Source: Veillonella parvula DSM 2008 (GTDB taxonomy: Bacteria; Bacillota; Negativicutes; Veillonellales; Veillonellaceae). From it: a stretch of 64,000 bases of DNA. Made by a program: the position numbers and the translations under genes. The stretch is taken from contig NC_013520.1 in the NCBI RefSeq assembly GCF_000024945.1, positions 2,009,001 through 2,073,000 on the forward strand, in the 5' to 3' direction. Under the pieces are notes generated by a model. That model was not told the origin of the DNA. It saw only the letters and a list, made by a program, of their open reading frames with translations, and made no database searches. Positions 49,518 through 59,567 of the stretch are shown one piece after another; the first letter of the stretch is position 1, and each line of letters opens with the position of its first letter.

Positions 49518-52067
49518 TCACTTTGTATCACGCATATAGTAAACAATGAGGTTGCAAGCTGTTAGCAAAGCTTTACAATCTTCTTCTGATTGAATCCATC
49601 TATGAATAGCTGTAACAAAGTTTTTATATGATTCATAGGTAGGATTATTTTTCTTAGGTTCTAATCTAGCCAATAAATAGAGTATACGAGCCACATTAAT
49701 ATGTTTGCCTAAAGCTCTATCATTTAATATACCTTGTAACAATTCCATCAACTTATATATTAGGCCTTTACCTAATTTCATTTTTGAGTCTTGCACCTCA
49801 TTAATGCCTGGAATAACAAATAATTGATCTAGTGTATAGAGCTTATCTTCAATGACATTATTAATGAGGTCATCCCATTTATATACATGTCGGCATATAC
49901 GCTCTTCACCGTTTGAGTTTGTTTCAAATCCAAATAAAGCAATACTATCTTTGCCATCATTATCTTTAGCAACACTTTCAAGTAAACCTGTAATTGCAGC
50001 CATTTGGCTAATTGGATAGGATGGAGAGAATAGAGCTAGGCCAGCAGACATAGTAATTTTATTATCTGTAACCTCTGCCAGTTTTTCACGAATATCAATG
50101 ACTAATTCTAATAATTCGTCCCATGCACCAACAAGGAATACATCGTCACCACCGGAGTAAATAACGTGAATTTTTCTAGTCGTAACTTTTTTATTAGCCC
50201 AAATAGTAAATGGTGTAACAGATCTACCAAAACCTTGCACATCACCTTGAGCCATTTTATTAACAGCAACCTTAAAGAACATTGCTAAATCACGAGATAA
50301 GTCAGCATAGCGTGATAAAGTACCATATTTAAATTTATCAGAGCCCTCAGAAATAAAGCCTCCGGTAAAAGCAGCACCAAGGTTATCTACGTCTGCTCGT
50401 AATACACCAAGTCGCTTAATGCCTTTATCCTCCCCTAAGCCACTAGATGCGGCAAGTTCTTCAAATTCATAAACTTGACCATTATCCTTGCGTGCTACAT
50501 AATCTGCTAACCAAATACGATTGAATATATTATGTCCAGTTTTAGCTGTATTCTTAGAGTAAATTCTAAGAATCTCATGACTAGATTCGAACTTCTGTAA
50601 TGATGATTCAGGGACCACATAAAGATATACCTTCAGATTATCCGCATCACTACTCAAATTGTTAAGATATACTTCAACCTTAGGAATACTTTCATTATCA
50701 TCACTCGTATTAGGGCTAGCTAATACAAAGACCGTATCTCGACTGTCAACAATTTGTTCCCCTAAGTGATACAAGCCATTACAAATTGGACAAGCCTCAG
50801 CATCGGTATCCTTACCATAAGGCGATAATGTTGCTGTTGAAGTGTGACAAATGAAACATTCCCGCTCGCCATGAAGAACTGTATTATACGTACTATTTGG
50901 ATTAAATAGATCTGTTAGGTGCTGTTCAGAATATCGTTTAGCCTTAGCCTCACCAACAGATTGGCTCACCTTACGGAATAATGTACGTTGCGATTGAATT
51001 AACTCGGCAGCTGTTGCGGTAGCGGAACCAAGCGCTAAATACAATTTAGTACCAAATACTGTTAAGAACCATTCATTAATGGATTTTTCCATAGATTCAA
51101 TGGCAGTACAAGTTTTTGTTGTATTAGGAGCCAATACATAAAAATGACCGCCACCATTGTAAATAAGATTTGCCCGAGTTAACTGCAATGTATCTAATAG
51201 TTCATCTACAATTTGTTCCATTAAAATTTCTAAATAGAATGAGCGACCACGTAATGATTTCAATGCACCTTTAGACGGAATCGTATAAATAAAATTCTGA
51301 ATGCCAGAAATATCTCCAGATATTAATCGAAACGCTGGCATTTCACGAAACTTTTTAGAGTTCTGATAACAGTATTCTTTATAATCAGTAATGCCTTGTT
51401 CCTCAAAATAATGCACCATACTATGTGCCACGGCAGCTGTTATCTTTGAGTGCATATACAAAGAAATATCATTGGTTTGATCTGTTGCCGTACTAGATGG
51501 CATATAAGATATAGTGTCTTCATAAATTCTCAGCAACTCATTAACGGACATCTTATCTATTGGTTGTTGCTGAAAGTTCTGTACTAATACATCATATAGT
51601 GCCTTATATTTATCACTTGGTGCGCGTATCGTTTTATCATTTTCAGGATAATTAAAGTGGTCCGACACATCAATGCCACGTAGATAATACTGTAAAGGTT
51701 GAGTACTAGTTTTATCGCCAAATACACGGAAGATTGATTGAAGCGGTAACTCTTTATCAAACTTCTGTGTAGAGGTATTTTCACCTTCCTCAAGATCTCG
51801 ACGATTTACAGCTGCAGCAATATTATCTGCTTCGTACACAATGTATGCATAATCATCATTTTTTAGTTGAGCTGTACTAAGCTCTTTCCCGTGATGATAC
51901 TTCAAACAATGAGTAATACTTTGCTTTAAGCCCATATCGGAAAAATAGGGTTCAATGAAAGCAGCGCCGCGCTTAGAATGTGCATCGGTTCCCTGATTAG
52001 CTCGATACACGACTTTGCCGATATCATGAAGCAATGCACCCTTTACCAGTGCATCCCATTTACCCAT
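49518..52067 (-). CDS. cas10: Cas10/Csm1, large subunit of the type III-A complex
   Basis: Cas10 senses bound target RNA, cuts DNA through its HD domain and makes cyclic oligoadenylates. The HD motif is LLHDIGKVVYR near residue 14, with YHHGKEL further on. A zinc-binding C-x2-C pair lies near 400 and 430 (CFICHTST, CPICNG). The cyclase motif SGGDDVFL is near residue 638. All catalytic residues look intact. GGAGG lies 7 nt before the ATG. It is the first gene of the csm operon, yet the downstream csm6 effector gene is truncated. Confidence 0.97.
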   Translation of the reverse strand: MGKWDALVKGALLHDIGKVVYRANQGTDAHSKRGAAFIEPYFSDMGLKQSITHCLKYHHGKELSTAQLKNDDYAYIVYEADNIAAAVNRRDLEEGENTSTQKFDKELPLQSIFRVFGDKTSTQPLQYYLRGIDVSDHFNYPENDKTIRAPSDKYKALYDVLVQNFQQQPIDKMSVNELLRIYEDTISYMPSSTATDQTNDISLYMHSKITAAVAHSMVHYFEEQGITDYKEYCYQNSKKFREMPAFRLISGDISGIQNFIYTIPSKGALKSLRGRSFYLEILMEQIVDELLDTLQLTRANLIYNGGGHFYVLAPNTTKTCTAIESMEKSINEWFLTVFGTKLYLALGSATATAAELIQSQRTLFRKVSQSVGEAKAKRYSEQHLTDLFNPNSTYNTVLHGERECFICHTSTATLSPYGKDTDAEACPICNGLYHLGEQIVDSRDTVFVLASPNTSDDNESIPKVEVYLNNLSSDADNLKVYLYVVPESSLQKFESSHEILRIYSKNTAKTGHNIFNRIWLADYVARKDNGQVYEFEELAASSGLGEDKGIKRLGVLRADVDNLGAAFTGGFISEGSDKFKYGTLSRYADLSRDLAMFFKVAVNKMAQGDVQGFGRSVTPFTIWANKKVTTRKIHVIYSGGDDVFLVGAWDELLELVIDIREKLAEVTDNKITMSAGLALFSPSYPISQMAAITGLLESVAKDNDGKDSIALFGFETNSNGEERICRHVYKWDDLINNVIEDKLYTLDQLFVIPGINEVQDSKMKLGKGLIYKLMELLQGILNDRALGKHINVARILYLLARLEPKKNNPTYESYKNFVTAIHRWIQSEEDCKALLTACNLIVYYMRDTK

Positions 52068-52238: not shown

Positions 52239-52575
52239 AAAACCGGCCCCAAATGGGGATTATTTAATTTAACTAGAATTAGATGAAGTATCTGTAGCTG
52301 ATAGCACTAGACTGGTTTCCGTCCCCATCAGGGGATTATTTAATTTAACATTGTAAAGATCAAGAAGGAACTTATTCCATATATTTCAGCAAGTTTCCGT
52401 CCCCATCAGGGGATTATTTAATTTAACTAACTTATAATACTCCTAGATTGAATGCTATTAAAGTTTCCGTCCCCATCAGGGGATTATTTAATTTAACAAA
52501 CCAAGTATTGCAACTCTTATTAAAAAAGATGAGTAAATAAGTTTCCGTCCCCATCAAGGGATTATTTAATTTAAC
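52239..52575 (-). CRISPR. CRISPR array 2: 5 repeats, 4 spacers
   Basis: Repeats of 35 nt start at 52315, 52393, 52463 and 52541, with a degenerate terminal repeat at 52239-52273. Spacers are 41, 43, 35 and 43 nt. The repeat is the same type as in array 1, but its loop reads CATCAGGGG instead of CTAATGGGG (plus strand), a form that array 1 shows only in the repeat next to the csm6 stub. The degenerate repeat lies at the low-coordinate end, so transcription is on the minus strand from the leader at 52576-52748. Confidence 0.96.
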
Positions 52576-52748: not shown

Positions 52749-52822
52749 TAAACAAAAGAAATAGAACCATTGGCATTAGTGAGATAACTCTATCAATATA
52801 TCAAACTAAAAATAATGGTTCT

Positions 52823-53450
52823 ATTAATATACTATAAACGTTAATTGTTGTTGCAACCTAATCACTGATACTTGTGGTATGCTTGAAGCTTACTCGTTTC
52901 AATACCGTAAACGGTAAGTGCTGTTGCAACAGGTGCAGATAGAAAATATCGTCGCCCTTGGAAGTATTATGTTTCAATACCGTAAACGGTAAGTGCTGTT
53001 GCAACTCTTCAATTTCAATACTGGAATTGATTTCTACTTCACGTTTCAATACCGTAAACGGTAAGTGCTGTTGCAACTGTAAAATCTTTACAAGATACCA
53101 CTAAGACAGCGGTAAAGTTTCAATACCGTAAACGGTAAGTGCTGTTGCAACCGACAATATTGCAATGGATCAAGTTCGTAACGATGCAATGTTTCAATAC
53201 CGTAAACGGTAAGTGCTGTTGCAACTGTCAAGAGAGGAGAATAATATGAACAGACAAAAAAAGAATGTTTCAATACCGTAAACGGTAAGTGCTGTTGCAA
53301 CTGAAGAGCAGTGAAAGTGTACAATCTGTTATGAAAGAATGTTTCAATACCGTAAACGGTAAGTGCTGTTGCAACTTATTCAAAGTAATCGTTCTGTACA
53401 ATCTATTAGTAATTAGTTTCAATACCGTAAACGGTAAGTGCTGTTGCAAC
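52823..53450 (-). CRISPR. CRISPR array 3: 9 repeats, 8 spacers
   Basis: Repeats of 35 nt start at 52896, 52971, 53043, 53117, 53191, 53267, 53341 and 53416, with a degenerate terminal repeat at 52823-52857. Spacers are 37-41 nt. On the minus strand the repeat begins GTTGCAACAGC, contains the palindrome ACCGTTTACGGT and ends ATTGAAAC. It differs wholly from arrays 1 and 2. An imperfect AGAACCATT/AATGGTTCT hairpin (52763-52821) may terminate the transcript. It may serve the III-D-like system to the right, but this is not shown. Confidence 0.97.
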
Positions 53451-53640
53451 AGCAGGCCTCAGTAGTCCAGTATTCATGGGGCTTAAAAATAGGTTTTGGC
53501 AAACCTCACACCGTAAACGGTCAGATTGAGCTCCCATGGGATTAAAAATGCCGATGAGCATAGGTAAATACTGGTGGTAAATGATTTTTCTAAGGTTACA
53601 GTAATTATAAGATTTTTCAGATTTTGCGTCAATATTTAAT
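53451..53640 (-). promoter_or_regulatory. Leader of CRISPR array 3
   Basis: The AT-rich DNA beyond the first repeat is where the leader should lie. At 53509-53520 it contains ACCGTAAACGGT, the palindromic core of the array repeat. The extent is estimated. Confidence 0.5.
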
Positions 53641-53883: not shown

Positions 53884-56139
53884 CTACTTATACATATAAA
53901 ATAGATACTTATCTAATACTTTTTTATATTCTTCTATGGTGTCATAAGTCACAATACTATCTTTAATCCAATCTTCAAATTTCAAATCTGGTCCACTATA
54001 ACCGAAGTCTTTGTAGGTCTTCCATATCCCACCATGTTGTTCTTCGTATTGTTCCCAGCGTGCTTCGCCAAAAGAAGCCATGGAAAGGGCTTTGTGATAG
54101 TGTTCTTTTGCTATTTCTATATTTCCTAACGTTTCATTAACTTGAGCTATTATATAGCAATCGAAGAAAGGCCATGTATATCCACTAGGTGCATCCTCCA
54201 TAGGTTCTTTCTTATTAGGAAGAGCCATATCAAATTCTTTTTTATATTTCTCGGCTCGTTGCATATCTCCAAAATGAACAGCTAGCTTAATCATATAGTT
54301 AACACATAGCTCATAGTCATTTATACCATAGAAAATAGGTATATAGTCCTGTTTTTCCCATTGTTCTACCAATTCATTCCAAAATTCTTTATCAATATCA
54401 TCTAAGTAGAACGCCCACAACGCTTTCACCCATAAATAGAAATCTCTATTAGAATAATTTTCACAATATTTACCATCTTCACCGTATAACAGTATATTCT
54501 TTTGTACTTTGTAATCTGAATCTATCCCTAATATTGGTGGATACAGCTCTTTAATATAACGCTCATAGCCAAGTTGATTATTCGTTTCTATGTAATAATG
54601 TAGCAATGCATAGCGTAAATGTTCTGTATTAAAAGCATGTTCTGGATCGTCTAAATTCTCAAAAATAGAATCTATATGTTCTTTATACAAAACTGGGTCT
54701 TGCTGTTGCATAATCATTAAATCTTGTAGTATTGGCTCTATTCTTTCATCTCCTAAACAAGCATAGGCTAGTGCTCGATACCACTGAGATATGCGAGATA
54801 CTTTCACCAAATACTCAACTTGCCAAGTATCTGTCGCAGAAATTTGTACCTTTGCAAGTTGCACATCTAACTTGTCTACAATCGGTAAAATATCGGCATA
54901 CATGTATCTATTAAAAGCATGTCGACATGCATCAATCATACAATAAAATGTACAGCACAGGCGAACGTCTAGAGTTAGTACAGTTGCTAAGTCTTGCTGC
55001 TTATAAATGTCTCGACCATCTATCTTTTTTTCACATATTTCCTCAAAAATAGACTGCACTGTCTCATCATAGGTGAGTATAAAGTTAAGATAGTCCTTAC
55101 GTTGCTCATCTTTTGGAGATAACTGAACTAACAGCTTTTCTCGTGTAAGATCTTTTACAAGGTTATCAAGTAAAGGTCCTACAAGATATTGTTTCTCATA
55201 GCCGATTACTCCATCGTCATAGGATGGAAACTCATCATTATAAACGTTAAGAATCTGTAAATAATCATGTATAGCATAAGCATCTAATATTTTATCTACC
55301 CAAATATTACATTCATCATAAATGGATATGCTAAAACATCTATTGTTAATCATAAAACACTTATGTAAACTACAACACATCTCACAGACAAATGGATCCT
55401 CTGTTAAAGCAGCTAACTGTTCACTCTCTGTATCACCTTCCATGGCTTGTACCATGTAAGCACCAAAGGCATCAGCGATTAATAGGAACTCTGTATTAAT
55501 TATCGTAGGTTCGTCCATGGTATGGGTATTGGAAATTGAGGAAACCGACAATGGAGATGGTACTGCTTCACGCTCGAGATCTTCCAAAATCTGTTGAACT
55601 GTTGTGACAGATAAGGGGGTATCAATATGAAATGCACCGTCTAAATAACCAAAAAAAGCATCTGGTTCAAAGAAGACCTTTAAAAAATATCTAAGCATAT
55701 GATCGAATATATACTGAGCCTCCTCTTTAGAAGATTGATGTGTTGGGAATAGCATATCCCTACCTCGATAGCTTTTATACATAGGATAAATAGTATAATA
55801 TCCATCACGAGGTTCAGATAATAATGGTTCCCCATTATAGGTACCATGACTAATAAACTCTGGCAAACAATTGATAACTTCTGTTCGCAACTCCTCTATA
55901 GGCTTTCCCCAGTCATTGCAAAGTGCTTTTACAAAAGCACGAATACGTTTACGTTCTAAATCATACCTTTCTCGAGCTGTCTCCACATCCTCTTGTTCAT
56001 CTTCTAAGAAACATCGATCTGGTACATAATAATCCAAAGCAAGTAAAAATGTCGTTGTTTCCTTTCCTTCTATGGGTGGAAACAACGATGGACGAATATC
56101 ATTAAATATACCTGTTGTACTTAAGGTTAAAAATCTCAT
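53884..56139 (-). CDS. Large helical protein of unknown function in the CRISPR island
   Basis: This 751-residue soluble protein has no signal peptide or membrane segment. The first 200 residues mix strand and helix (RFLTLSTTGIFNDIRPSLFP, YYTIYPMYKSYRGRDMLFPT). A cysteine cluster CEMCCSLHKCF lies near residue 250-260. The last third is a helical-repeat region with TPR-like units (MIKLAVHFGDMQRAEKYKKE, QVNETLGNIEIAKEHYHKAL). GGGAGG precedes the ATG. It follows the HAD gene by 100 nt without a terminator and may be the fourth gene of that operon. I recognise no known Cas or effector domain. Confidence 0.75.
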   Translation of the reverse strand: MRFLTLSTTGIFNDIRPSLFPPIEGKETTTFLLALDYYVPDRCFLEDEQEDVETARERYDLERKRIRAFVKALCNDWGKPIEELRTEVINCLPEFISHGTYNGEPLLSEPRDGYYTIYPMYKSYRGRDMLFPTHQSSKEEAQYIFDHMLRYFLKVFFEPDAFFGYLDGAFHIDTPLSVTTVQQILEDLEREAVPSPLSVSSISNTHTMDEPTIINTEFLLIADAFGAYMVQAMEGDTESEQLAALTEDPFVCEMCCSLHKCFMINNRCFSISIYDECNIWVDKILDAYAIHDYLQILNVYNDEFPSYDDGVIGYEKQYLVGPLLDNLVKDLTREKLLVQLSPKDEQRKDYLNFILTYDETVQSIFEEICEKKIDGRDIYKQQDLATVLTLDVRLCCTFYCMIDACRHAFNRYMYADILPIVDKLDVQLAKVQISATDTWQVEYLVKVSRISQWYRALAYACLGDERIEPILQDLMIMQQQDPVLYKEHIDSIFENLDDPEHAFNTEHLRYALLHYYIETNNQLGYERYIKELYPPILGIDSDYKVQKNILLYGEDGKYCENYSNRDFYLWVKALWAFYLDDIDKEFWNELVEQWEKQDYIPIFYGINDYELCVNYMIKLAVHFGDMQRAEKYKKEFDMALPNKKEPMEDAPSGYTWPFFDCYIIAQVNETLGNIEIAKEHYHKALSMASFGEARWEQYEEQHGGIWKTYKDFGYSGPDLKFEDWIKDSIVTYDTIEEYKKVLDKYLFYMYK

Positions 56140-56239: not shown

Positions 56240-56776
56240 CTATTTACCACATTCTGCAACTGATTCCACAGCCATTACGGTCAATCCTAGCTTCCGAAGA
56301 TAGTTAATAACCTCAGGATTGTCTTCGTGAAAGCATAAGTCCTCAGGCTCACAACCAAAGAGTGCACAGAAATCCTGCACAGCATGAGCTACATCATCCT
56401 CTGTTTTATTGCTAAAGCGAATCGCTCTATATTCGGTAATCTTATGGTATCTTAGTAACATACGCACCCGTTCAGGATTGGCCACAGTCCACAGGGCACA
56501 ACGTTCACTACCATAGGTAACAAGCACACGTGCTACAGATTCGTTCAGCTGAGATACCTCTAAATGGCGTTCCACATAGTCCTGTTTGAGTCTAGTAATA
56601 TGCATTACTTCACCCTTTGTCAGCTGAGGATAGCATTCCTGCACAATTTCACGTGTGATGCGTGGCACGACCTTACAAGGTTCTAAGTCCACACAGGCCA
56701 AGGCATGTACATAGCCCGCTATATTAAGTTCGTCGGTGAACACCAAGGTGTTATCTACATCTACAATGTGAAACAT
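56240..56776 (-). CDS. HAD-superfamily hydrolase-like protein
   Basis: The first motif of HAD phosphatases is present as HIVDVDNTLVF (residues 3-13), with both nucleophile-region Asp residues. Motif II may be the Thr of ALWTVANPERV, motif III the Lys of FSNKTEDDV and motif IV HEDNPEVI. The helical cap between motifs I and II suggests a small C1-capped phosphatase. It is the third gene of the PRTase-DprA-HAD operon, 27 nt after the DprA-like gene. It probably acts on a phosphorylated nucleotide or sugar made by its neighbours, which is inference. Confidence 0.8.
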   Translation of the reverse strand: MFHIVDVDNTLVFTDELNIAGYVHALACVDLEPCKVVPRITREIVQECYPQLTKGEVMHITRLKQDYVERHLEVSQLNESVARVLVTYGSERCALWTVANPERVRMLLRYHKITEYRAIRFSNKTEDDVAHAVQDFCALFGCEPEDLCFHEDNPEVINYLRKLGLTVMAVESVAECGK

Positions 56777-56803
56777 AAGAACCTCCTTTAGTCATATTAA
56801 ACA

Positions 56804-57751
56804 TTAAAATAGTTTTTGCTGTGCCTCTAATGCAGGATTCACAAAACTTACGAGGTCATCCACCATTACCGAGCTATATCCTGTCGTACCGACTCCACTT
56901 GGATTTGTCACCAATTGTTTTGCTTTTTGCTGTGAAAGTAGGCTACGGTTCAATTTCATCTCAAGTACTTCGCCATCTGTCGTTTCATCATACATGACAC
57001 AGGCTAGATGTCCATAAGAGTGTGCTTTACCCATAGCATGACGGGAGCCACTATCTCCATCTCGGCCTTCATAGCTAGCGATGAGCACTACAGCCTTGGC
57101 AAATAACGCTTGCAACCGATCTCGCTCTACATAACGATTAATCGCTTCATGACGACTGCGCGGCCCATTGTAGTATTCAGAAATAACAAGACCACCTTTT
57201 TCGATAATTTGATGGGCCATGTCCCGATGGTCTGCCGGTGAAATAGCATTTAATGGTGATGGCAAAATGGCAATCGTCTTTCCTCCACAGTCCATGCAAA
57301 CCGTATGCCCAATGGCATCGCAACCTTTTGCAAGGCCGCTTACGATATGTTGTCCGTGATGGACTAAGTGCTCAACAATCTTACTTTCACGAGCAATGAG
57401 AGCCTCGTTCGGTGTTGTATAACCAATGACTGCCACATTCCGATTCAAATCACGCAATAAAGACAAGTCACCCTTATAAAATAAGAGATACGGGCGATCC
57501 CCTTTAGGGACGCTTTCATTAATAACTGGAAACTCCGCATCAAAGCAGCATACCGCACCATCCATCCAGTCCATGTCATCTACCGCAACGGATAGGTCAT
57601 GCACTACATCATCGATATCAGTAATGTCGCTCATCATGGCGAGGAATTCATCCTCTGTTTTCCAGTTATCGTGAAAGCTTTTTCTCGTTGTAATGCGGCT
57701 CGTCGTATTATGGACGGCCCAAATTTTTAAAGCTATCGGTGAAATGTTCAT
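56804..57751 (-). CDS. DprA/SMF-like Rossmann-fold protein
   Basis: The central domain (about residues 100-265) follows the DprA Rossmann pattern: NRNVAVIGYTTPNEALIARE, HIVSGLAKGCDAIGHTVCMD, TIAILPSPLNAISPADHRDM and ALFAKAVVLIASYEGRDGDS. The DprA G-S-R start is changed to G-Y-T, so DNA binding as in natural transformation is uncertain. Related SLOG-type domains bind nucleotides. It starts 1 nt after the PRTase stop, indicating coupling. A role as nucleotide sensor or enzyme with PRTase and HAD is inferred from context. Confidence 0.8.
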   Translation of the reverse strand: MNISPIALKIWAVHNTTSRITTRKSFHDNWKTEDEFLAMMSDITDIDDVVHDLSVAVDDMDWMDGAVCCFDAEFPVINESVPKGDRPYLLFYKGDLSLLRDLNRNVAVIGYTTPNEALIARESKIVEHLVHHGQHIVSGLAKGCDAIGHTVCMDCGGKTIAILPSPLNAISPADHRDMAHQIIEKGGLVISEYYNGPRSRHEAINRYVERDRLQALFAKAVVLIASYEGRDGDSGSRHAMGKAHSYGHLACVMYDETTDGEVLEMKLNRSLLSQQKAKQLVTNPSGVGTTGYSSVMVDDLVSFVNPALEAQQKLF

Positions 57752-57752
57752 A

Positions 57753-58415
57753 TTATGCCCCTTTTCTATAAGAAGAACGACGGTAGGTGTACGCTACAGC
57801 GTAGAATACAACACGAGCTGCGCCCGCATCATATAATGCCTGAATACAATCCTCATCAACGTTCACTGTTTTTGTATAAATATCATCAATTAAAATAACC
57901 GTTTTGCCTCGAACTGCATCGGCGTCGATATGACAAGTGTCATTTGTAATGCCCACATAGGGCTCGCTACCGCAATTATCAAAGCCTGGCAAATTTTTAT
58001 GAATATGTGTTGTCTTCGTATTTGTATGTCGCATAATACAGCCGATGCCATCTGTGATACCTGAGTATCCGTTGGCCTGTAATATTCTGACACACTCTTG
58101 CACCGCATCGCGGAAGCCTAGCTGGTTAGGTGACATAAAGGCTTTAGCTCTAGGTACAACGGCAACAACCACCTCCTCAAGCTTTTCAGCCTTCATGATA
58201 TCGGGAATATCCCTTTTTACTCTATCATACACTTCCTGACGGGCAGATTTTAGGACACTAGGACAATAGTTGTTCAATGTATTTTTTAAAGTATTAAGAA
58301 AATCAGGATTTCCTGGCTCACGAAAACGCAAATACAAATCACGGTAATAACCAACACAATCACGAGATAAATATTCATTGCTAGATAAAGTAAAACGTCT
58401 AATTAACTGTTCCAT
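57753..58415 (-). CDS. Phosphoribosyltransferase-like protein
   Basis: The PRPP-binding signature of type I phosphoribosyltransferases appears as TVILIDDIYTKTVNVDEDCI (about residues 173-192), followed by the strand GAARVVFYAVAYTYR. An N-terminal helical region of about 70 residues is specific to this protein. I used the ATG at 58415, with GGAGG 5 nt upstream, rather than a start four codons earlier. It heads the operon with the DprA-like and HAD genes and has a 170-nt structured leader. The acceptor base is unknown. Confidence 0.82.
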   Translation of the reverse strand: MEQLIRRFTLSSNEYLSRDCVGYYRDLYLRFREPGNPDFLNTLKNTLNNYCPSVLKSARQEVYDRVKRDIPDIMKAEKLEEVVVAVVPRAKAFMSPNQLGFRDAVQECVRILQANGYSGITDGIGCIMRHTNTKTTHIHKNLPGFDNCGSEPYVGITNDTCHIDADAVRGKTVILIDDIYTKTVNVDEDCIQALYDAGAARVVFYAVAYTYRRSSYRKGA

Positions 58416-58449
58416 ATGAACCTCCATTTATAAAAACTACATAATTATT

Positions 58450-58597
58450 GTTAAACCTGTGGAGTGCCCATCACTCAATTTCAAACCGTCAAGGACGGTC
58501 TCCAAACAAAGGAGATTTATGTGTGTAGAGAGGAGAAAATTTATTTTTAAAAGGAGAACTATCATACTACTTGATGTTTCAACCCCTCAGGTTTAAC
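58450..58597 (-). promoter_or_regulatory. Structured leader RNA of the PRTase-DprA-HAD operon
   Basis: On the minus strand GTTAAACCTG (58588-58597) and CAGGTTTAAC (58450-58459) form a 10-bp perfect closing stem around about 128 nt. Inside are hairpins ACCGTC/GACGGT (58485-58499) and CTCC/GGAG. The first arm starts a few nt after the expected start site, and the last ends about 35 nt before the PRTase start codon. This is the plan of a cis-regulatory aptamer, but no known riboswitch class is recognised. Confidence 0.5.
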
Positions 58598-58607
58598 TTG
58601 TGTGTTC

Positions 58608-58613
58608 ATTATA
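58608..58613 (-). promoter_or_regulatory. -10 box of the PRTase operon
   Basis: TATAAT on the minus strand (58608-58613) would start transcription near 58601, just before the first arm of the leader stem. No convincing -35 is present. Confidence 0.5.
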
Positions 58614-58658
58614 CGAGTTATACGAAAATGGAGATAATCAAAAAAACTAGGAACCAAA

Positions 58659-58705
58659 AAAGAGGTCTCAAAGGCATCTATAACAGATGCCTTTAAGACC
58701 TCTTT
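58659..58705 (-). terminator. Terminator of the III-D-like operon
   Basis: AAAGAGGTCT-AAAGGCATCT and AGATGCCTTT-AGACCTCTTT (58659-58679, 58685-58705) form a 21-bp stem with one mismatch and a 5-nt loop, followed by T5 on the minus strand. Confidence 0.88.
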
Positions 58706-58763: not shown

Positions 58764-59567
58764 CTATTTGTTTTGTAATGTCACACGCACTTGACCAAGA
58801 CTTTGGCTAGACAAACGACCTATGCCACAATGCTGTCCAAAAAGAGCCAAAATCGTGATAAGTTGATTTTCCTCTTCTGTTAGTTTAGAGATATTAAAGG
58901 TAAACTTACCTACAAAACCAGTAAGCCCTCGATCTCGACCATAAAATACTCGTTTTGTATGTCCTTCCCAACGTTCAAGGGTTACTTTTTCAGCAACGGT
59001 CCGTATTAGGTCTTTGTCTAATACATCCGCCATATCTCCAGCATTCCATTTGTCTACTAGAGAGGAGAAAATAAGACTTGATGTAGGGAACGTTATATCT
59101 CCATATGTTCCATTAAAGGACGTAGGCATCATCACCTCAAAGGTAATGCGTTTCGCCTGTTTTGCAGAAAGGCGACGGCTGATTAGCTCCAACTCATTAT
59201 CTACCTTCAAAGGTAAATTAAATGGTACTCCATACCGAATCCCTATGATGGTAGTACGTAAACGCCCAAAGACTACCTCTAAGCCCTCAGATATACCTTC
59301 TAGTAATCCCCATAACTCACTATGCCATACAGAAACATGTAAACATAAGATATCCCCACGTCGAATGATATTATCTTGACGAGGCTCTTTAAAGGATAAT
59401 TGTAGTGAGAAAGGCTTTATTCCTTCCATATCATGCCACCATGTAGCCTCATCTGCATCTGCATGACTAAGAATAGAGAAAAGTGCCGCATGTAGATATC
59501 GCCCAGGAAAGGCAGGCAAGCTGCCTCTATTTTGAGCTTCTAAAGCAATAGTAACTATGCCTAGCAT
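58764..59567 (-). CDS. cas6: Cas6-type repeat endonuclease of the second type III locus
   Basis: This 267-residue RAMP has the Cas6 C-terminal domain pattern KRVFYGRDRGLTGFVGKFTF, then LALFGQHCGIGRLSSQSLGQV with the glycine-rich loop. The N-terminal half (LPAFPGRYLHAALFSILSH) offers a His in the catalytic region. It is clearly different in sequence from the III-A Cas6 and may process array 3, whose repeat is distinct. Its ATG overlaps the stop of the preceding RAMP gene as TAATG. Confidence 0.85.
   Translation of the reverse strand: MLGIVTIALEAQNRGSLPAFPGRYLHAALFSILSHADADEATWWHDMEGIKPFSLQLSFKEPRQDNIIRRGDILCLHVSVWHSELWGLLEGISEGLEVVFGRLRTTIIGIRYGVPFNLPLKVDNELELISRRLSAKQAKRITFEVMMPTSFNGTYGDITFPTSSLIFSSLVDKWNAGDMADVLDKDLIRTVAEKVTLERWEGHTKRVFYGRDRGLTGFVGKFTFNISKLTEEENQLITILALFGQHCGIGRLSSQSLGQVRVTLQNK

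Follow-up and report, generated by a model that had tools for sequence, protein, structure and literature searches.

Three linked genes between CRISPR loci of Veillonella parvula probably encode a ShosTA-like defence module with a split toxin

Between the CRISPR arrays and a second type III operon of Veillonella parvula DSM 2008, three tightly linked genes encode a phosphoribosyltransferase (PRTase), a DprA/Smf-like protein of the SLOG type and a HAD phosphatase, which raises the question of what such a set does in this place. The window analysed here is a stretch of 64,000 nucleotides (nt) (NC_013520.1, positions 2,009,001 to 2,073,000), and coordinates refer to it unless another record is named. 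A sequence-only reading had placed the set at 56240-58613 and proposed that it acts in defence by making or sensing a nucleotide derivative, possibly in connection with a nearby Cas10. All three open reading frames were found on the minus strand, namely the PRTase (57753-58427, 224 aa), the DprA-like protein (56804-57751, 315 aa) and the HAD phosphatase (56240-56776, 178 aa), with gaps of 1 nt between the first two and 27 nt between the last two; the proposed span holds for the reading frames, whereas its end at 58613 extends some 185 nt into the non-coding leader. The setting is also as described, with the arrays on one side and a III-D operon on the other. We consider the trio to be a ShosTA-like toxin-antitoxin module for phage defence, whose toxin comes from two separate genes, HAD and PRTase, and not from a single fusion, and give this reading a probability of roughly 0.62 on the basis of composition, conservation, fold, intact catalytic motifs and genomic context.

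The usual description of ShosTA is that of two genes, for a PRTase and a DprA, but both reference ShosT types examined here (P0001, P0002) are HAD-PRTase fusions. The ShosT of the Pf phage PfAC02a was annotated by its depositors as HAD hydrolase/PRTase, lies next to a DprA-like ShosA and matches the Pfam families HAD_2 (3.9e-23) and Pribosyltran (1.2e-8), while the P2-like ShosT of Escherichia coli, identical in sequence to PDB entries 8zvb-8zvd, gives weak Hydrolase and Pribosyltran matches. As known ShosT is a HAD-PRTase fusion partnered with a DprA-like antitoxin, the trio can be read as the parts of ShosTA with the toxin split, its HAD having a gene of its own both in the window and in every relative with the trio. 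The comparison suggests that such systems regularly include a HAD phosphatase as third component, joined to the PRTase in Pf- and P2-type ShosT and encoded on its own in the trio clade. Like ShosTA, the trio combines a PRTase of the ShosT/ComF fold with an adjacent DprA-like gene and a HAD domain, and is found on accessory or mobile DNA together with other defence genes; it differs in its low sequence identity (16%) and in that its DprA-like proteins form a clade of their own.

The three genes form a conserved unit rather than a chance cluster. Sixteen PRTase loci were collected, 13 by searching one genome of each species with a PRTase alignment, one each from a plasmid collection and a phylum search, and the window itself. 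The DprA-like gene directly follows the PRTase in 14 of these, and 13 of the 14 also have the HAD, giving 13 full trios in Bacillota, Bacteroidota, Ignavibacteriota, Pseudomonadota and on a cyanobacterial plasmid, the single locus (from Synechocystis) found in the plasmid search. The gene order is PRTase-DprA-HAD in Bacillota and HAD-PRTase-DprA in the other four groups. The exceptions are a PRTase-DprA pair (L080) and two Bacilli metagenome-assembled genomes (L035 and L038) with the PRTase alone. In these two the PRTase lies in the same, housekeeping-looking gene context with no DprA or HAD nearby, and may have been domesticated or have other partners. Within the order the distribution is patchy: the PRTase is present in 3/61 genomes, with short, weak matches in four more, and the HAD in those three as well, corresponding to 3/300 genomes of the class, with one further weak match, versus a nearly universal housekeeping dprA (59/60 genomes). 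No relatives of the PRTase or HAD were found on viral contigs, a phage search returned fragmentary matches only, a search for the locus at the DNA level in plasmids returned nothing, and a fold search against BFVD gave no significant match.

The surroundings of these loci agree with a role in defence. Recognised defence genes are at most about 6 kb away at five loci, namely the window (type III CRISPR), V. parvula SKV38 (a type II restriction-modification system and PDC-M33A), Veillonella sp. 3891 (an AbiP2 reverse transcriptase and a WYL protein), a Bacteroidales metagenome-assembled genome (an AAA protein matching NsnB) and the Synechocystis plasmid, where AbiD is directly upstream of the trio. 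These are raw counts, and the proximity is an indication, not a test. The trio of SKV38 adjoins the same permease gene that precedes the III-A operon in the window and has no CRISPR there, so that this is a variable chromosomal slot. The trio is thus seen in variable locations, rich in defence genes or mobile, and not mostly in core metabolic ones, a core-metabolic look being confined to the two PRTase-only relatives. The earlier idea of a defence function gains from composition, conservation and context alike, and the trio has, as had been suggested, the parts of a nucleotide-acting defence system.

The PRTase, the putative toxin and its catalytic part, is recognised weakly by sequence (Pfam PRTase_3, E=0.001, below the Pfam cut-off). 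Its relatives share the invariant motifs PRxK, TTH and LIDDIYT..N..ED, and the LIDDIYT motif, with the acidic pair of the phosphoribosyl pyrophosphate (PRPP) site, is present in 12/12 aligned PRTases. An AlphaFold2 model (pLDDT 83.6, pTM 0.84) confirms the PRTase fold; it matches ShosT with bound PRPP-Mg (8zvc) with a Z score of 12.8 over 188 residues (root-mean-square deviation 3.4), tied with ComF (Z 13.5) and clearly ahead of PurF (9.0) and HPRT (8.2 or less). This fold is common to ShosT and ComF, and is therefore necessary but not sufficient for ShosTA.

The HAD protein has a small C1-type cap and appears to correspond, as a free-standing protein, to the HAD domain found in ShosT. The Pfam HAD_2 match is again below the cut-off (E=0.007), and the predicted model (pLDDT 94) confirms the fold, matching C1-cap phosphatases such as the phosphoglycolate phosphatase-like 2hsz (Z 16.0). 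In a profile comparison with the HAD part of Pf ShosT, hhalign gave 91% over 132 columns. The catalytic residues are present (DxDNT, T97, K124, E151/D152) and are kept in 12/12 aligned trio HADs. In the P2-like ShosT of E. coli, by contrast, motif I reads FSxxDV (FSIADV and similar; copies inspected, L055-L064) instead of DxDxT, and hence this HAD looks catalytically dead from its sequence, though the fold is kept; the DxD is retained in the HAD of PfAC02a ShosT. The retention of the catalytic residues throughout the trio, in contrast to E. coli ShosT, suggests that the HAD reaction is of importance in the trio. The pyrophosphatase activity reported for ShosT may have a source other than the degenerate HAD. 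Since the separate HAD is intact and that of the crystallised E. coli protein is degenerate, the role of the HAD can be tested directly.

The DprA-like gene matches Pfam DNA_processg_A (E=8e-34) and is a second dprA paralogue, with a housekeeping dprA elsewhere in the genome. In a tree of DprA proteins the trio members form one clade (support 100/100) apart from the housekeeping clade, and this clade splits with gene order into a Bacillota branch (98/93) and the remainder (94/85). The profile of the DprA-like protein is closer to ShosA (E 5e-31 for Pf, 5e-19 for P2) than to the housekeeping copy encoded elsewhere in the genome (6e-14). Most simply it is a ShosA-like partner, a putative antitoxin or DNA binder, and not a signal sensor. 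In Veillonella sp. 3891 the HAD is followed by another DprA-like gene (L024 7548-9079; PRTase-DprA-HAD-DprA), and the two copies of this locus fall on different branches, one with that of the window and one with that of SKV38.

Several observations weigh against an assignment to ShosTA. The PRTase profile of the trio is about equally close to ComF (67%) and to ShosT (81% and 48%), so that on sequence it would not separate the two by itself. The P2 ShosA clade lies outside the trio clade and the Pf ShosA adjoins it weakly (92/73), with long branches. The pair at L080 and the PRTase-only Bacilli genomes indicate that the HAD is not indispensable everywhere. PADLOC matched the window proteins to ShosA (2.5e-46) and ShosT (1.4e-7), yet its models score housekeeping genes of the same genome higher: the ShosT model gives 29.8 bits for the window PRTase and 37.9 for the housekeeping ComF-like PRTase, and the ShosA model 155.9 for the window protein and 191.8 for the housekeeping DprA. 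Since these curated models rank housekeeping paralogues above the trio, a family match alone proves nothing, and the PADLOC matches were rejected as sole evidence. Given this and the ambiguity of the PRTase profile with ComF, the trio is called ShosTA-like and not proven ShosTA. It follows for annotation that defence scanners with two-gene rules and current models may miss such modules, mislabel them or confuse them with ComF or DprA.

How such a module could work is drawn by analogy with ShosTA, which is the source of what is proposed here on its toxicity and neutralisation, its trigger, its substrate and the part played by the HAD. A DprA plus a PRTase protect E. coli against T7 and lambda, and DprA homologues are the antitoxins in ShosTA, PsyrTA and RqlHI (PMC9122126). 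In RqlHI the toxic part is the PRTase domain, which binds the DprA-like partner (PMC4670107). According to the account in PMC12593503 (citing Pu et al. 2025), ShosT has PRTase and pyrophosphatase activity and perturbs purine pools, with DNA duplication and filamentation, and ShosA binds DNA. By this analogy, the DprA-like protein would normally restrain the toxin and/or repair its damage at the DNA together with recombination proteins, until disturbance of the cell by a phage makes the restraint fail. The freed PRTase would then consume PRPP and unbalance the purine nucleotide pool, the HAD phosphatase might work on the PRTase product or on pyrophosphate, and the resulting corruption of DNA synthesis would halt the infected cell before phage release. 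The trio resembles PsyrTA and RqlHI, in which a DprA-like protein keeps the toxin domain, a PRTase, in check (PMC4670107), but their PRTase is part of a fusion with a RecQ-like helicase, whereas the trio has a separate HAD and no helicase domain was found in its 224-aa PRTase by domain scan or in the structure model.

A tentative possibility is that the trio belongs to a separate, deep-branching HAD/PRTase/DprA defence family, spread over five phyla, in which the catalytic HAD is a required second step and the two enzymes jointly produce or remove one particular nucleotide species, a chemistry that would have been lost in the E. coli-type ShosT with its degenerate HAD. Rather unlikely in our estimate is a two-step nucleotide system independent of type III CRISPR, in which the PRTase product is dephosphorylated by the HAD to a diffusible nucleoside-like toxin or signal, with the DprA-like (SLOG) protein as sensor or regulator. 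The retention of HAD catalytic residues in the trio speaks for such a scheme, as does the proposal that PRTase and HAD pairs make nucleoside derivatives in Ter systems (PMC7824862). The trio resembles the biosynthetic part of these systems in having a PRTase plus a HAD phosphoesterase (PMC7824862), but differs in its DprA-like partner and in that no TerB/C/D-type genes were recognised beside it; TerB, TerC and TerD were absent among the window neighbours scanned, and the neighbours of the relatives were only partly scanned with Ter models.

The structural tie with ComF, nominally the top match, together with the handling of incoming single-stranded DNA by both ComFC and DprA (PMC9005727), could also suggest a duplicated competence-type module, in which a ComF-like PRTase and a DprA handle single-stranded DNA in transformation and the HAD is a passenger. 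This is improbable: the trio shares the ComF-fold PRTase and the DprA fold with the natural transformation proteins, but the genome has separate, housekeeping ComF-like and DprA genes, the trio is accessory and patchy in contrast to the near-universal dprA, the window PRTase reaches only 13.5 bits on the comF model TIGR00201 (cut-off 233.55), and the HAD is linked to the PRTase-DprA pair in all but one of the loci that have it. That the trio is an ancillary effector of the adjacent type III systems, responding to cyclic oligoadenylate from an intact Cas10, can be nearly dismissed, since its place between the III-A and III-D operons, where the genes read include no recognised CARF effector, is offset by the lack of cas genes near any other trio locus, of CARF or SAVED matches in the three proteins and of CRISPR beside the SKV38 trio in the corresponding chromosomal slot, and by a terminator between trio and III-D operon.

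The link to Cas10 signalling that the sequence-only reading had drawn is accordingly not supported: Cas10 is present in 3/13 genomes or records tested, all with the PRTase-DprA core, and lies beside the trio only in the window, the other Cas10 genes being on different contigs. As that reading had stated, a Cas10 with an intact GGDD motif is present near the trio, and the absence of a local Csm6 agrees with the genes read. The GGDD motif is kept in both type III systems, III-A and III-D (window 49518-52067; L025 8704-10305), but none of the genes read was recognised as coding for a CARF effector.

The trio is probably a transcription unit of its own, because a strong, intrinsic-terminator-like hairpin of 20 pairs (58659-58705, minus strand) separates the III-D cas6 from the PRTase; it is among nine terminator-like sites, where 2.7 were expected. 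The III-D operon starts at 58764. Downstream of the trio lie a gene for a 751-aa protein with weak TPR-like similarity (53884-56139, minus strand) and then the CRISPR arrays (52240-52575 and 52816-53451), with the III-A operon beyond. The 751-aa protein was considered as a fourth part of the system and rejected, as related genes (36-55% identity) are found in three other Veillonella-genus genomes without the trio; it has no PADLOC match. An Rfam search of the neighbourhood gave no credible match. The operon leader (58428-58658, minus strand) contains a long inverted repeat, GTTAAACCTG...CAGGTTTAAC, at 58430-58600, which is not conserved in two Veillonella relatives and has no further substantial copy in 14 Veillonella-genus genomes, and the leader RNA is predicted to fold no better than shuffled sequences (z -0.34). 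The ends of the repeat vaguely resemble the local CRISPR repeat (GTTTC..CCCC..TTTAAC), and it is perhaps a decayed repeat.
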